Position numbers and translations under genes: made by a program. The notes beneath the pieces were generated by a model that did not search any database, was not told the origin of the DNA, and saw nothing but the letters and a program-made list of their open reading frames with translations. This document shows positions 52,760-60,490 of a stretch of DNA of 64,000 nt, one piece after another (position 1 is the first letter of the stretch; each line of letters opens with the position of its first letter). The DNA comes from Geoalkalibacter halelectricus (GTDB lineage: Bacteria > Desulfobacterota > Desulfuromonadia > Desulfuromonadales > Geoalkalibacteraceae): the NCBI RefSeq assembly GCF_025263685.1, contig NZ_CP092109.1, forward strand, positions 248,001 to 312,000, written 5' to 3'.

Positions 52760-55291
52760 CTAGAAAACCCCTCGATCATTGAGGTGGGGGCCGTACTTTT
52801 TATCCTCTCCCTGGATATGGTTGATCAGCCAGCCCTTGAGAAAATTGAACAGATCGCTCGACACCGATACCTTGCCGGCCTTGAATTTCTGCTGGAAGTC
52901 CGCTACCTGGCCGACCAGATGGGTGTGGGCCGCCTTGTGTTCCTCGAAATCAGGGAACTGATGGGATTTCATCAGCCGCTCTTCCTCGAAGAAGTGCTTC
53001 TGCGTGTAATCGACCAGGCGCCCAAGAATCTCGCCGATAACCGCATCGCCCTGGCCGGTTTTCATGGCGGCGAACATTTCGTTGACCATGTCCACCAATT
53101 GCTGGTGCTGGCGATCCAGGTGCGCGACGCCGACGCTCAATTCGTCGCTCCAGCGCATCAAAACGGCACCCGGCGCCGGAGACGGAGCAGGCGCCGCCGC
53201 CCTGGGCAGGGCCGGGGGGCGCACCTGGGTCCGAGGTTGTGCCATCGTCGTGGGTGCGGCGCCCTGGAGGCGGAAACGCCCGAGCATCTGCTTGAGCTGC
53301 ATGGCCTGGGCCGAGAGTTCCTCGGCGCTGGCTGCGCTCTGCTCGGCGCTGGCGGTGTTCTGCTGCGTCACCTGGTCGATCTGCGCGAGTCCCGTATTGA
53401 CCTGGCCGAACCCTTCGGCCTGCTCGTTGGCGGCGGCGGCGATCTCGCCAATCAGATCGGATACTTTGCGCACGCCCCCGACAATGCTCTCCAGGGAACG
53501 AGCCGTTTCATCGGCGATCTGCGTGCCGCGGCTGGTTTTCTCCACGGTGCCCTCGATCAGTTCCGCCGTCTCCTGCGCGGCCTTGGCGCTACGCGCCGCC
53601 AGGTTGCGCACCTCCTCGGCCACCACCGCGAAGCCCTTGCCGTGCTGCCCGGCGCGCGCCGCCTCCACGGCGGCGTTGAGGGCGAGCAGGTTGGTCTGAA
53701 AGGCAATCTCCTCGATGGTCTTGATGATCTTGGAGATACTCTGTCCAGCCAGGGATATTTCGCCCATGGCCTCGGTCATGGCGCGCATTTTCTGGTTACC
53801 GGTCTCCGCGGCGGACTGCGCCTCGCTGGAAAGCTGGTCGGCCTGGCGGGCGTTTTCGGCGCTCTGGCGGGTCTGCGCGACCATCTGGTGCATGGAGGCG
53901 GAAATTTCCTCCAGGGAGCTGGCCTGTTCGGTGGCGCCCTGGGAAAGCGAGGCGCTGGCGTCGGCGACCTCGCCCCCGGCACTTGCGATCTGGCCGGCCA
54001 CCTGCTGCAGGTCTCCGACCAGGGTATTGAGGCTGTGGTTGGCACGCGCCAAAGGCTCGCGAATCAGCCCCTGGGCCTCGAAGGTGAAATCGCCGTCGGC
54101 CAAGCGCTCAAAGGCCTCGAGCACCTCCTTTTCCAGGTTATCGGCAAAGCGGTCCATGGCTTGGCCCATACGCCCGATTTCGTCCTTGCGCTCCATGCTC
54201 AGCCGTCGGCCGAGACGCCCGGCGGCCAGATCCTCGATCATCGCCAGGGTCTGCCCCAGGGGCTTGGTCAGACTGCGGGTCAACAACAGCCCAAGCGCCA
54301 GGGCCAGTACTACTCCGGTGGCCATCCCGCCCAAAGCCAGCAACGTGGATCGGTGCACCTCGGCATCCGCCGCGGCCACCGCTTCTTGCGCGCCCGAGGC
54401 AGTCAAGGCGATAAGTTCATCGAGCAGTTCGTAGGTGCGGGCGCTGCGTTCCTGCACCGGCCCCAGGAGTTGGGCATTCATTTCCCGGTAGATGCTCGAG
54501 GCCTCCTGGGCGACCCGCAGCATCTCATCGAACGTAGCGAGGGTGGTTTCCACCGCGGGCATCATGTGGCTGCGATAATGCTCCTGGGCCTCGCTGAGAC
54601 GACCGGCCTGGACCAGCATCTTGATCCGCCCGACCGATTGGTGAAAGCCGTCGTGGACGCCGCGCACCTGCCGGAGCAGATCCTGCAGCCGCGGATTGGT
54701 GGTGGTGAAATTGGGCAGCCAGCGGCCGAAGGCGCACAGGGTGGGATCGTCGCCGCCCTCGAAACCCATCTGGGCATGGATAAGATCCTGGGTCATGACG
54801 GCGGCGCGATAATGGTCGCCGCGAAACTTCTCCAGATCGGCACGCAGACCGACCGGATCAAGAATACCCGTGGCATCGAGGCGCCGCGACAGCTCGGTGA
54901 AGTGATCCACCGCCTCGGCGCGCAGCCGCCAGGCGGCCATCATTTCGTCGTACAGAGCCTTCTCCCGGGCGGTGCGCGGCAGTTGCTCGTAGGCCTCGCG
55001 CGCCGCGGCAATCACTCCGCGGGTGCGCGCGTTTTCGGCATATAGGGCCTCGCGCTCGCCAGGGCTCAGGCCGGGATTGAGCAGCGAGCGATGCACAATG
55101 GTCGAGCCCTGGGCGGCCTCCTTGATGGCGGAGAGTTGCTGAACGGCAGGCAGGCGTTCTTCACCGATCCGATGCACGTCATCCGCGAGGCCGACGATGC
55201 CCCGCACACCCACCAGCCCGACGACCAGGGCGATGATCCCAACCAGGACAAACCCGCCAACCAATTTCACCCCCAAACGAACATTCTTCAT
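52760..55291 (-). CDS. Chemoreceptor with extracytoplasmic CZB-like domain and C-terminal hemerythrin
   Basis: 843 aa. TM1 (about 9-35), a periplasmic helical domain (about 36-315) with a CZB-type metal motif (H160, H172, CAFGRW with C186, VHDGFH), and TM2 (about 316-338) are followed by HAMP (about 339-395) and the MCP signalling domain with hairpin tip [20 protein letters not shown] complete bacteriohemerythrin domain follows (about 712-843) with HxxxE, HxxxH and HxxxxD ligand sets ([16 protein letters not shown]). Hemerythrins bind O2 at a diiron site, so it probably senses oxygen inside and a metal or redox cue outside. ATG at 55291 has GGAGGTG upstream. It is closely related to the gene at 58313-60490, which lacks hemerythrin. 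Confidence 0.92.
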
Positions 55292-55794
55292 GCACACCTC
55301 CAGCGGTGGTTCGGGAAAAAGGCTCATACAAATGACAAAGTGTCAATCTTGCAAATCACACACCAATTAAAGCGTATACAGAATTGCAAAATCCAATTCC
55401 TTACCGAAAAGATCCTCAATCCAGAGACAAAGGATTGATTTAACGAGAATATTTTAAACCTTATCGCCGGCCGAGCGAACGGCTGGGTTTACACGGAAAA
55501 GTTCAAGGCGGAGCTGGGACCGCAAAAAAATCAATCGCTATCTCAGCGCCAGGGAAAATGACAGGGAGGATTCAGTCAATTGACGGATAGAAAAAAGGTT
55601 CTCGCTACCACACCTCCCAACAACTTGTCGGCCAGGAGGCTGTCGGATTATCCGGGCGAAGCGCAAACTTGGAGGTTTCAGTCCGATTTTGGCTCCCTTG
55701 AGAGTGCATAGCCGTAACTACGTGCCGAAAAGAAGCCGGAATCCGGGCCAAACAGACGGATTTGCATCCAGCTCATGGATAGTCCGACAGCCTC
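55292..55794. other. 503-bp region without genes between two chemoreceptor genes
   Basis: The first 340 bases (55292-55633) are moderately AT-rich and hold the upstream region of the hemerythrin chemoreceptor. A 13-bp palindrome TGACA-AAG-TGTCA is at 55333-55345, 42 bases before its ATG; it may be an operator, but no promoter consensus fits around it. The rest (55634-55796) is copy 2 of the 165-bp repeat. No small gene with a ribosome binding site was seen. Confidence 0.5.
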
Positions 55795-55796
55795 CT
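55634..55796. mobile_element. MITE-like inverted-repeat element, copy 2
   Basis: 163 bp, the reverse complement of copy 1 (44625-44789) with scattered differences. Ends AGGAGGCTGTCGGATTATCC and, inward from the right, AGGAGGCTGTCGGACTATCC. It begins directly at the end of the 55795-57447 chemoreceptor gene, so its right-end CTAG supplies the TAG stop codon region. No coding capacity. Confidence 0.85.
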
Positions 55797-57447
55797 AGAC
55801 TAGCCGAAACCTGCTGATCATCTGCTTGAGCTGCTCGGCCTGGGCCGAGAGCTGCTCGGCGGCCGCCGCGCTCTCCTCGGCGCTGGCCGTATTCTGCTGC
55901 ACGGCGATATCGACCTGATCCACCCCCTGGGTAACTTGCTTGATGCCTTCGGCTTGTTCGCGCGAAGCGACCGTCACTTCGCCGATCAACCCGCTGACCT
56001 TGGCGATGCGCTCGGTAAGGTCGGACAGCGCGGCGGCGGTCTGCTCGGCGACCGCGACCCCTTCCCCCGTCTGGTCCACGGCTGAGGTGATGAGTTGACT
56101 GGTTTCCTGGGCGGCCCTGGCGCTGCGCGCCGCAAGATTGCGCACTTCCTCGGCCACCACCGCGAACCCCTTGCCGTGCTGGCCGGCGCGCGCCGCCTCC
56201 ACGGCGGCATTGAGAGCGAGCAGATTGGTCTGAAAGGCGATTTCGTCGATGCTCTTGATGATCTTGGAGATACTCTGTCCAGCCGCGGCAATGGCGTTAA
56301 TGGTCCCGACCATGCGCTCGACGTGATGGTTGCTGGACGCGGCGGCATCGCGCGCCTGCGCGGCCAGGAGGTCGACCTGGCCGCAATTCTGGGCGTTAAG
56401 CCGGGTCTGGGATTCGATCTCGTTGATGGAGGCGCCGATTTGCTGCAACGCTCCGGCTTGGCGCGTGGCCATCTCCGACACGGATTGGCTTGAGGACGAA
56501 ACCTGATTCGAGCCGCTGGTGATCTGGTCCGCTCCGTTGCTGATTTCATGCAACAGGTTGTTGAGATCGCCGCCAACCTTGGAGACGGCATTGCGCAAAC
56601 GATCGCCGGCGCCGCGTGGGCGGGCACTGAAGGTCAGATCACCTTGCGCCAGGCGCTCCAGGGCAGCCACGACTTCATTTTCCAGGCTCTCGGCAAAGGC
56701 ATCCAAACCGCGGGCCATCGTACCGATTTCATCCTTGCGCCGCATCCCGAGGCGATGGTGGAGGTGCCCCCGCTCCAGTTCCTGCAGCATGGCCAGGCTG
56801 CTTTTGAGGGGCCGTGAGATACTGCGGGCGATCAGCACCGCAAGAAGAGCAGCAAACACCAGAGCAAACAGGGACACCATCAGGCCAGTTTGGGCAGTAC
56901 TGCCGGCCAGGGCATCGATATCCTCGAGCCCCGAGTGCAATTCGCTCGCACCCGTTTGCTTGAGACGCTCGGCCTGGACCGAAAAAACCTCGCGGGTTTC
57001 GGCAAAGGCGGGTCGCGCTTCGATCATGCCCATGAAATCCTGGGCGATGGCGGTATCGGCCATGCTCTTGCCCGCGGCGAACATGGCGACCACGCTTTGG
57101 TCGAGGTCGTCGAGGCCGGCGCGCAAGGCAGGTGAGGGATTCAAGGCGCGCAGTTCCTCGAGGGCCTCGCGATACCCGGCAAGGGTTTCCTCGGCCTGCC
57201 GCAGCAGATCGGTTCGCTGGGCATCGGCCGCGGCAACCAGAAAATTAACGATTCCGTCGGCGTGATTCACCAACTCCAGAGCCGCGATGGCATGAGTGAA
57301 ACGCTCCTGCTTGAGCACCGTCGCCTGCGCCCCGATACGGTCGGCATTGACGTAGCTCATCAGGGAAAAGCCGAGAAAAAGCGCCAGCACCACCCCAAAG
57401 GACAGGAACAACTTGGTTGAGATTTTCAGGTTGTCGATGAGCCGCAT
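55795..57447 (-). CDS. Methyl-accepting chemotaxis protein
   Basis: 550 aa. TM1 (about 10-30), a four-helix-bundle periplasmic sensor (about 31-185), TM2 (about 188-208), HAMP (about 209-262) and an MCP signalling domain with the conserved tip [19 protein letters not shown]. It has no CZB or hemerythrin domain and no CheR-binding pentapeptide tail. ATG at 57447 (GTG one codon earlier possible), with GGAG upstream. Its stop TAG sits at the boundary of repeat copy 2, so the C-terminus may have been set by that insertion. Ligand unknown. Confidence 0.9.
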
Positions 57448-57476
57448 CACGTCTCCGCAAGCATTGTAAAGTTGAA

Positions 57477-57513: not shown

Positions 57514-58245
57514 CTAGTTCCCGGTTTTTACGGGCATGCCCTCCACGACCCAGCGCTGCATGCCGCCGTTGAGAAACACCACGTCGGAAAACCCGCGCGC
57601 GCTGAGGAAACGCCCGGAAGTCGGTCCGCGCTGTCCATTGACGTCCACGATGATGATTTTCTTGCCTTGAGGTATCTCACCGACCCGCTCCAGCAGACTG
57701 TTGAAGGGAATCACCAGACGCTTGGGGTGGTCGATGTAATATTTGTCGACCTCCTGCTGAATACGAATGTCGAGGAGAACTAGATCCTCGCCCGAATTCA
57801 GGGCGCTCTGCACTTCTGCGGCGAGCAGCGCGGGGATGTCGACGCGCGGCAAGGGCTCGGGCGCATTGACGGGAAAACCGGCGCCGGCCCAGGCGGGCAG
57901 GCCGTCACGAAAGGTATATACGGATTGATAGCCGGCTTCGGCCGCCCGACGGGCGGCTGCGGGTGCGGCCAGTCAGGTTCGGCCCAGGCAGTAAAACACC
58001 AGGGTCTGATTCTTATCCGCCGGAAGAGCCGCGGGAATCTGGCCGAGTTCGATATGCACCGAACCGGCGATGTGCAAGCTGTTGAACTCGATGAGGCTCA
58101 GGGGAAACACCACCAGGGCCTCGCCTTTGTCCATCAGGGTCTTGAGATCCGCCGCGCTGATCTCGGGTGGATCTTCCACGGCCGCGACCGGGCCGCTCCA
58201 AGCCAGGAGGGCAAACAGCAGGGTGCAGAGCATAATGCGTCTCAT
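57514..58245 (-). CDS. Putative selenocysteine-containing periplasmic tandem rhodanese (in-frame TGA)
   Basis: The frame from the ATG at 58245 (AAGGAG upstream) is open to TAG at 57514 except for one TGA at 57975-57973, codon 91. Read as Sec, the product has 243 aa: a signal peptide (about 1-22), rhodanese domain 1 with FYCLGRT-U (C86, U91) followed by LAAPAAARRAAEAGYQSVY and FRDGLPAW, and rhodanese domain 2 (about 140-243; DVNGQRG, no Cys). The sequence after the TGA is the normal continuation of a rhodanese domain, so both halves are one gene. Homologous domains often read CxGxxC, placing Sec at the second Cys. A stem-loop follows the TGA at SECIS distance. If not Sec, it would be a nonsense-disrupted pseudogene. 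It lies between two chemoreceptor genes. Confidence 0.75.
57941..57972 (-). promoter_or_regulatory. Candidate bacterial SECIS element
   Basis: Directly after the UGA, the RNA can form an apical stem of 7 bp, GCCGCCC / GGGCGGC, with loop GUC (57957-57941). The loop starts 23 bases after UGA, inside the usual 16-37 window, and its first base is G, as expected for SelB recognition. CUGGC right after UGA can pair with GCCGG further down to form a lower stem. High GC makes chance hairpins common, so support is moderate. Confidence 0.5.
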
Positions 58246-58312: not shown

Positions 58313-60490
58313 TCAATAGCGCCCGAATTCCTCGTCGTCCAGGGCGATGCTCGGTTGTTTGGCGGGTGTGGCTTGGGCACGCGGCCAATCCTCGCTGCTT
58401 GAGCCTTGCGAAACCGGCGGCGCGCTGATCGCACGGGGCGATTGCTCCGACACAGGAGCGGCATCGAGGCGAAACCGCCCCAGCATCTGCTTGAGCTGCA
58501 TGGCCTGGGCCGACAATTCCTCAGCGGCCGCGGCACTTTCCTCGGCGTTGGCGGTGTTCTGCTGGGTCACCTGGTCGATCTGGGAGAGGCCGGAATTGAC
58601 CTGCCCGATGCCTTCGGCCTGCTCGTTGGATGCTGCGGCGATCTCGGCGATGAGGTCGGAGACCTTGCGCACCCCCACCACGATTCCATCCAGGGATTGC
58701 GCCGTTTCCTGGGCAATCTGGGTGCCGCGGCCGGTTTTTTCCACCGTTCCCTCGATCAGTTGCGCCGTTTCCTGAGCGGCTTTGGCGCTGCGCGCCGCCA
58801 GGTTGCGCACTTCCTCGGCGACCACGGCAAAGCCCTTGCCGTGCTGGCCGGCGCGCGCCGCCTCCACGGCGGCGTTAAGAGCGAGCAGGTTGGTCTGAAA
58901 GGCAATTTCCTCGATGGTTTTGATGATTTTGGAGATGCTCTGCCCGGCCTCGGAAATCTCGGTCATGGCCAGCGTCATATCCTTCATCTTGCGATTGCCT
59001 TCTTCCGCCGCTTTTTGCGCCTCGTCGGAGAGGCGATCGGCCTGCCCCGCGTTTTCGGCGCTCTGGCGGGTCTGGGCAACCATCTCGTTCATGGAGGCTG
59101 AGATCTCCTCCAGGGAACTCGCCTGTTCGGTGGCGCCCTGGGACAGGGACTGGCTGGCATCGGCCACTTCGCCCCCGGCGCCGGCGATCTGGTTGGCGAC
59201 CTGCTGCAGCTCGCCGACCAGGGCGTTGAGGCTGACATTGGCCCGCGCCAGGGGCTCGCGAATGAGACCCTGAGCCTTGAAGGTGAAATCCCCCTCGGCC
59301 AGGCGCTTGAAGGCTTCGAGTACCTCCTTTTCGAGATTTTCCGCAAACCGGTCCATGGCCTGCGCCATGCGCCCGATTTCGTCTTTGCGCTTCATGTTCA
59401 GGCGGCGACCGAGGCGCCCTTGGGCCAGGTCCTCGATCATGGCCAGGGTGCCGGCCAGGGGTTTGGTAATGCCGCGGGTCAGGAGCACGCCGAAAAGCAG
59501 AGCCAGAAAAACGCCCAGAACGATGCCCAGAAGACTCAATTGAACGGCCTGCCGCACCTCGCTTTCGGCAGCGGCCACGGCCTCTTCGGCACCGGCCCCG
59601 GTCACTGCGATAAGCTGGTCGAGCAGTTCGTAGGTGCGCGCGCTGTGCAGCGCGACGTCGCCCATGAGCAGATCCGACATTTCGGCCTGCAGAGCTTCGG
59701 CGCGGCCCGCCACCTGAATCATTTCATCAAACACTTCGAGAGTTCTGTCCACCGCCGGCATCATGGTCGTGCGGTAGAGTTCCTGAGCCTGCTCGGCATA
59801 GCCGCGTTGAACAAGGCTTTTGATGCGCGCGACGGCGCCGTGAAACTCATCGTGCACGCCGCTGACCTGGCGCAGCAGATTGCGCAGTTGCGGGTTGGTG
59901 GTCTCAAAGATCGGCAGCCAGCGCCCGAAGGCGCACAGGGTCGGATCCTCGCCGCCCTGAAAATCGGTCCCCGCATGAATCAGGTCTTGCGTTTGAACCG
60001 CGGCGCGGTAATGATCGCCGCGGAATTTTTCCAGATCGGCGCGCAGGCGGGCGGGGTTGAGGATGCCGGTTTCGTCGAGGCGACGCGACAACTCGGTGAA
60101 GCGGTTCACCGCATCGGCGCGCACCCGCCAAGCCGCCATGAGTTCGTCGTAAAGAGCACGCTCCTCGGCACTCAGGGGCAGCTCCAGGTAGGCTTCGCGC
60201 GCCGCCTGGATGACGCCGCGGGTCCGCACGTTCTCCTCGTAGAGCGCCTCGCGCTCAGCCAAGCTAAACCCTGGATTGAGCAGGGAACGATGCACGATGG
60301 TCGAGCCTTGCGCCGCTTCCTTGATGGTATAGAGATACGCGACGGCCGGCAGCTTTTCGCGGCCCAGGGTTTGGATATCATCCTGCAGGCCGGTCACCCC
60401 GAACACGCCCACCAGCCCCACGCCAAGTGTTACAACGGCCACCAGCACGAATCCTCCCAACAACTTCAATCCCAGTCCGACATTTTTCAT
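58313..60490 (-). CDS. Chemoreceptor with extracytoplasmic CZB-like domain
   Basis: 725 aa, clearly a paralogue of the 52760-55291 receptor along almost its whole length. TM1, periplasmic domain with the same CZB-like motif ([32 protein letters not shown]), TM2, HAMP and an MCP signalling domain ([19 protein letters not shown]). In place of hemerythrin it has a Ser/Pro-rich tail of about 50 residues ending [13 protein letters not shown] at 60490 with AAGGAG upstream. It lies upstream of the rhodanese gene on the same strand (67-bp gap) and may share its transcript. Confidence 0.92.

Follow-up and report, generated by a model that had tools for sequence, protein, structure and literature searches.

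A tandem rhodanese gene with one in-frame TGA, paired with a chemoreceptor gene in Geoalkalibacter halelectricus: a predicted selenoprotein and candidate periplasmic sensor

The locus

The window, a 64,000-nucleotide stretch of the Geoalkalibacter halelectricus genome (contig NZ_CP092109.1), carries on its reverse (-) strand, as it does every other window feature given below, a tandem rhodanese gene (57514..58245) of 243 codons that is read through one TGA and closes with TAG. The frame from 58245 to 57514 is open apart from codon 91 (57973..57975), just as the first-pass annotation had claimed, and the listing of open reading frames gives the two halves of the gene as separate ORFs. Residues 1-22 (58180..58245) resemble a leader, probably a signal peptide to judge from their sequence and from a helix at residues 2-16 of the structural model; this hydrophobic N-terminal helix suggests that the protein is exported.

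Two stretches of the protein match Pfam PF00581 (77.1 bits against a cut-off of 22.2), and an AlphaFold model (mean pLDDT 94.3), for which 13 relatives were supplied, has two rhodanese domains. Domain 1 (approximately residues 27-127; 57865..58167) carries C86 (57988..57990), which occupies the rhodanese catalytic position directly after strand 81-85, starts the active-site loop and is invariant in alignment A1. Codon 91, the predicted site of selenocysteine (Sec91, U91) and a Cys codon in Cys homologues, closes that loop directly before helix 93-103 of the model. The loop reads C86-L-G-R-T-U91, the longer motif CLGRTULAA. Domain 2 (approximately residues 138-240; 57526..57834) has Asp201 (57643..57645) at its catalytic position, which is Cys in one Cys clade (CLKGKR). 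Apart from C86 the protein has a single Cys, C7 of the leader, which bears out the earlier statement that domain 2 is without Cys.

A structure search returns rhodaneses, with a tandem rhodanese from Francisella (6mxv) as the best match. Single domains of other entries fit well, but the whole protein reaches only TM 0.43, so that the mutual arrangement of the two domains seems to be different. Domain 2 matches the Wolinella protein Sud in a sequence search. Within the close family only, Sec members have Asp at position 201 and Cys members have CLKGKR. A general rule by which a Sec in domain 1 would take the place of the domain 2 Cys was rejected, because the Cys clade with the GPKC motif also has Asp there.

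The rhodanese gene lies between two chemoreceptor (MCP) genes of the same strand, approximately 60-70 bases from each. The partner chemoreceptor on its downstream side (55795..57450; 551 aa) consists of a periplasmic helical domain, a HAMP domain and an MCP signalling domain (Pfam; alignment A2). The second MCP, upstream (58313..60490; 725 aa), has 4HB_MCP_1, HAMP and MCP signalling domains by Pfam and a weak CZB-like zinc-binding match (23.7 bits, below the cut-off of 29.4). A third MCP of the row (52760..55327; 855 aa), whose membership of the same unit is uncertain, has a C-terminal hemerythrin domain (Pfam). Its periplasmic part also shows weak CZB-like similarity (LCAFGRWL), which the MCP at 58313-60490 shares.

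Selenocysteine at codon 91

The first-pass annotation had placed the TGA at the second Cys of a C-x-G-x-x-C motif, and the relatives of the gene agree. Among the 25 close-family genes, exactly codon 91 is TGA in 13 and Cys in 12, with nothing else at that place and with C86 invariant, and same-length homologues in the order likewise have either TGA or Cys there. (A single-protein query against genome contigs found no close relatives; a query by alignment did.) The same TGA is kept in many genomes, down to ~40% identity; additional Sec members occur in other classes, and a few distant relatives in the wider family carry other residues, Gly or Val, at position 91. The wider-family tree requires a minimum of 6 changes of Sec/Cys state, and well-supported branches make at least 4 of these unavoidable. 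A genome of the same genus (G041, 84% identity) has the TGA at the identical position, and between it and the window the codons that follow the TGA differ by 15, 8 and 57 changes at codon positions 1, 2 and 3; the downstream part therefore behaves as protein-coding sequence. Unlike the rest of that part, codons 92-103, which contain a hairpin, are without change (Fisher P 0.004).

That hairpin (57941..57957), SECIS-like by the comparative tests that follow, begins 15 bases past the TGA and pairs GCCGCCC with GGGCGGC in a 7-bp stem around a loop, GUC in the RNA (57950-57948), that is headed by G. Taken singly it is not exceptional against the GC-rich background (z -1.24): 22% of synonymous shuffles of the window gene fold as well as the real hairpin, and when the upstream flank is folded with it, a rival structure appears and the z-score is unremarkable. 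The case for it consequently rests on comparison. A hairpin with at least 6 of 7 pairs and a G within the first two loop positions stands at the same distance in 31 of 35 distinct Sec gene sequences, as against 4 of 49 Cys homologues. Its stem pairs covary by compensation, with C-G, G-C, A-U and U-A all found at one position, for example, and 226 of 245 pairs are formed, against 186 expected when the 3' letters are dealt anew, a shuffle in which relatedness remains. Hairpins of Sec genes average -9.7 kcal/mol and those of Cys genes -5.3, according to our own simplified energy model, the distance and loop rules of which are reportedly those of the published bacterial SECIS model. The strong G-loop hairpin of the earlier note thus proves to be conserved and covarying among Sec genes, and weak on its own.

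The genome, a single contig of 4.13 Mb, encodes the whole of the Sec machinery: selA (610 bits, cut-off 268), selB (391 bits, cut-off 242), selC, the tRNA-Sec (75.6 bits, cut-off 47), and selD (370 bits, cut-off 125) are all present above their cut-offs. The genes selA, selB and selD lie together (G000:C1:692433-696755, L106). A second candidate Sec rhodanese of the same genome, single-domain and with the motif FYCRGYTUGLAIEAAVA, lies at G000:C1:3409976-3410374 (-) (L091:4627-5013), and its relatives in three further genomes (G085, G086, G088) have a TGA at the matching position.

Codon conservation, machinery and hairpin together make it almost certain that the gene encodes a selenoprotein, with Sec predicted to be incorporated at codon 91. 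The frame would also be open under any code in which UGA is read otherwise, whether by a near-cognate Trp or Cys tRNA or through general reassignment, but such a reading is very improbable: the homologous residue is Cys and never Trp, the frame holds a single TGA followed by a SECIS-like hairpin, and the genome has tRNA-Sec, SelA and SelB as well as a SelD that itself contains one in-frame TGA. Less credible still, to the point of being negligible, is an ordinary nonsense mutation or sequencing error that leaves a pseudogene or only a 90-residue protein, for although standard annotation would end the gene at the TGA, that TGA recurs across many genomes, to ~40% identity, gives way in the close family to Cys alone, and is followed by a conserved hairpin and by sequence under coding constraint.

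Pairing with membrane receptors

The Sec rhodanese gene adjoins an MCP gene, on one side or the other, in 11 of the 12 close-family loci that can be judged (the locus of G009, cut by a contig end, was left out). The MCP is downstream in G000 (the present genome), G041, both copies of G008, G100 and G376, and upstream in G050, G051, G052, G080 and G076; G000 and G041 have one on each side. The exception is G025, in which the Sec gene is without an MCP neighbour. Since these genomes show 8-20 MCP genes each in the same search, adjacency by chance would occur at approximately 1% per locus; no combined probability is given because the loci are related by descent and are not independent.

The partner's periplasmic sensor domain was traced by profile tests, a BLAST test for MCP domains having missed several known ones. 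A search of 134 genomes in the order located this domain at nine places (225-299 bits). All nine directly adjoin a Sec rhodanese, and the domain was found nowhere else; the next-best place scores 74 bits, and two of the nine (G052, G080) are outside the set from which the model was built. The genetic pairing of the Sec rhodanese with a membrane receptor, which the first-pass annotation had passed over, is conserved. The periplasmic domain of the partner contains no Cys (alignment A2), so that thiol exchange between rhodanese and MCP was rejected, and any signal must pass by non-covalent contact.

Pairings recur in the wider family. One group of Cys tandem rhodaneses combines the motif FYC[LK]GPKC with Asp in domain 2. 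In 14 loci of this group an MCP-type receptor comes next, and most of these receptors are matched (28-48 bits) by the Sec-partner model, which was built without them. A Myxococcota locus (L052) likewise precedes an MCP. Two loci of the FYC[LK]GPKC type, L116 and L134, have no MCP-type neighbour, and of the 11 Cys members that have an active-type domain 2 (CLKGKR) and usable flank, none has an MCP neighbour. Other Sec relatives have other neighbours. In one further Sec clade, two Sec rhodaneses stand in tandem with a response regulator on one side and a sensor histidine kinase on the other (L058/L086, L059/L087, L135 and L136), a putative two-component unit with two selenoproteins, or a single one precedes a histidine kinase (L099). 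In two genomes (L076, L077) 32-44 bases separate a Sec rhodanese from a large membrane protein that follows it; this protein, probably a sensor, has a CxxCH motif on its periplasmic side.

Further members belong to NrfD or cytochrome operons (L096, L125-L132, L061-L069), and signalling is not universal in the family, since several of these (L096, L125-L132) are Sec relatives. Sec rhodaneses with FFCKGPGU (or LPTU) lie beside a small membrane protein in L096 (6475-7204), L125-L130 and L132, that of L096 within an NrfD/multihaem cytochrome cluster; in L061-L069, Cys tandem rhodaneses (YCESxxC) lie beside multihaem cytochrome genes. Multi-domain CxGxxU rhodaneses with a matching hairpin were also seen in genomes of the same class (L152, L153, L154).

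A candidate sulfur and redox sensor

The combination of a Sec gene with a dedicated receptor suggests a selenium-based chemical sensor, for which the following sequence of events is proposed. UGA codon 91 would be decoded as Sec by SelA, SelB, SelC and SelD, steered by the hairpin just downstream. In the periplasm, C86 would take up a reactive sulfur atom (from polysulfide, persulfide or similar zero-valent sulfur or selenium) or would be oxidised, and U91, at the other end of the same loop, would resolve it as a Cys-Sec bridge, the selenenylsulfide pair suggested by the first-pass annotation; to judge from the position of the two residues and from known rhodanese and Sec chemistry, this could serve as a fast, reversible switch. 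Domain 2, in which the absence of a catalytic Cys is observed, probably offers a surface for docking or regulation. The periplasmic domain of the adjacent chemoreceptor would read the state of the rhodanese, and the cell would steer along sulfur or redox gradients; the observed genetic pairing is what points to this contact and to the taxis that it would serve. We regard the explanation as a whole (an exported selenoprotein with a C86/U91 switch that acts as a periplasmic sulfur/redox sensor and signals through an MCP) as likely. A broader proposition is that reactive sulfur, selenium or redox state is sensed first by a periplasmic tandem rhodanese, in many cases a selenoprotein, on behalf of a dedicated chemoreceptor or, in other lineages, of a histidine kinase that takes its input from two Sec rhodaneses in tandem; of this we are less sure, and lean only slightly in its favour.

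In the chief competing account the protein is a selenoprotein of metabolism: it would work in the periplasm as a sulfurtransferase, persulfide reductase or thiol-disulfide oxidoreductase, to feed or protect the respiration of sulfur or metals, and the neighbouring MCPs would respond to the same compounds on their own and be only co-regulated. Known rhodaneses do move sulfane sulfur, related Sec and Cys tandem rhodaneses do occur in NrfD and multihaem cytochrome operons, and ExtH, a rhodanese family lipoprotein, is encoded in an electron-conduit cluster of Geobacter (PMC6148476). Nevertheless, this account is unlikely: among the 134 genomes the sensor domain of the partner MCP is confined to the neighbourhood of the Sec rhodanese, the association has outlasted rearrangements of gene order, it recurs with a receptor in a distinct Cys clade and with a kinase in a different Sec clade, and the second domain of the protein is without a catalytic Cys. 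Sensing of reactive sulfur or redox state through the partner MCP remains the preferred reading.

Relation to known systems

Maltose-binding protein and Tar exemplify the way in which periplasmic binding proteins report to chemoreceptors. The logic proposed here is the same, a soluble periplasmic primary sensor that would be read by an MCP; the putative sensor differs in being a sulfur/redox enzyme fold with Sec. Sud, a polysulfide-carrying rhodanese of Wolinella, is a single domain without Sec that feeds polysulfide reductase and is not known to be a receptor partner. It (PDB 1qxn, sulfide dehydrogenase) shares the rhodanese fold and is periplasmic, as the window protein probably is. The ExtH-type Geobacter rhodanese lipoproteins (PMC6148476), likened here by description, are rhodaneses of metal-reducing bacteria and are exported, as the window protein probably is, but ExtH belongs to an outer-membrane electron-conduit cluster and is not beside a receptor. 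Possible relatives read FYCNGVKCGKS, and two of them read FYCNGFKUGKS.

Rhodanese-like selenoproteins had been said by the first-pass annotation to be known already in bacteria, and a 2026 review (PMC13188914) indeed describes five forms: UxxS, UxxG, CxU (= NF041203), a further UxxG, and UxxxxU. Because of these several forms, the same annotation's "probable new selenoprotein" stands as to selenoprotein and has to be narrowed as to novelty: the window protein is not a first, and represents a new subfamily of known rhodanese selenoproteins. Forms 1-4 likewise place Sec in or near the active-site loop of a rhodanese domain, but the window protein differs in its tandem domains, exported look and CLGRTULAA motif, and the review gives no receptor pairing for them. 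Form 1 is set apart by its motif description, UxxS, the window protein reading ULAA; it may nonetheless share the position of Sec, because rhodaneses of the Geobacter class read CxGxxUxxS and have the same hairpin. For form 3 (NF041203, rhodanese_LYCAU) the window protein scores 57.4 against a cut-off of 115, and its spacing is CxxxxU rather than CxU. Form 5, TsoB (NF045694; 49.3 against a cut-off of 805), is locally similar over the loop of domain 1, and its second Sec apparently corresponds to U91. TsoB, however, has Sec at both ends of its six-residue loop (UxxxxU) and a DsbD-like part, while the window protein pairs C86 with U91, adds a second rhodanese domain and lacks any DsbD portion. 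The window protein scores above the cut-off of no NCBIfam model, and a search of the papers available found nothing that links a bacterial selenoprotein or rhodanese with a chemoreceptor.

An exported-looking, tandem-domain C-x-G-x-x-U subfamily is thus added to the rhodanese selenoproteins, encoded by a gene that standard annotation would cut at codon 91 and that is tied, in nearly every genome of the close family, to one type of chemoreceptor sensor. If the proposed sensing function is correct, Sec would enter bacterial chemotaxis and two-component signalling, and there would be a reason for keeping it in a non-respiratory protein. It would also provide a testable account of the way in which sediment bacteria that respire sulfur and metals locate zero-valent sulfur or redox gradients.
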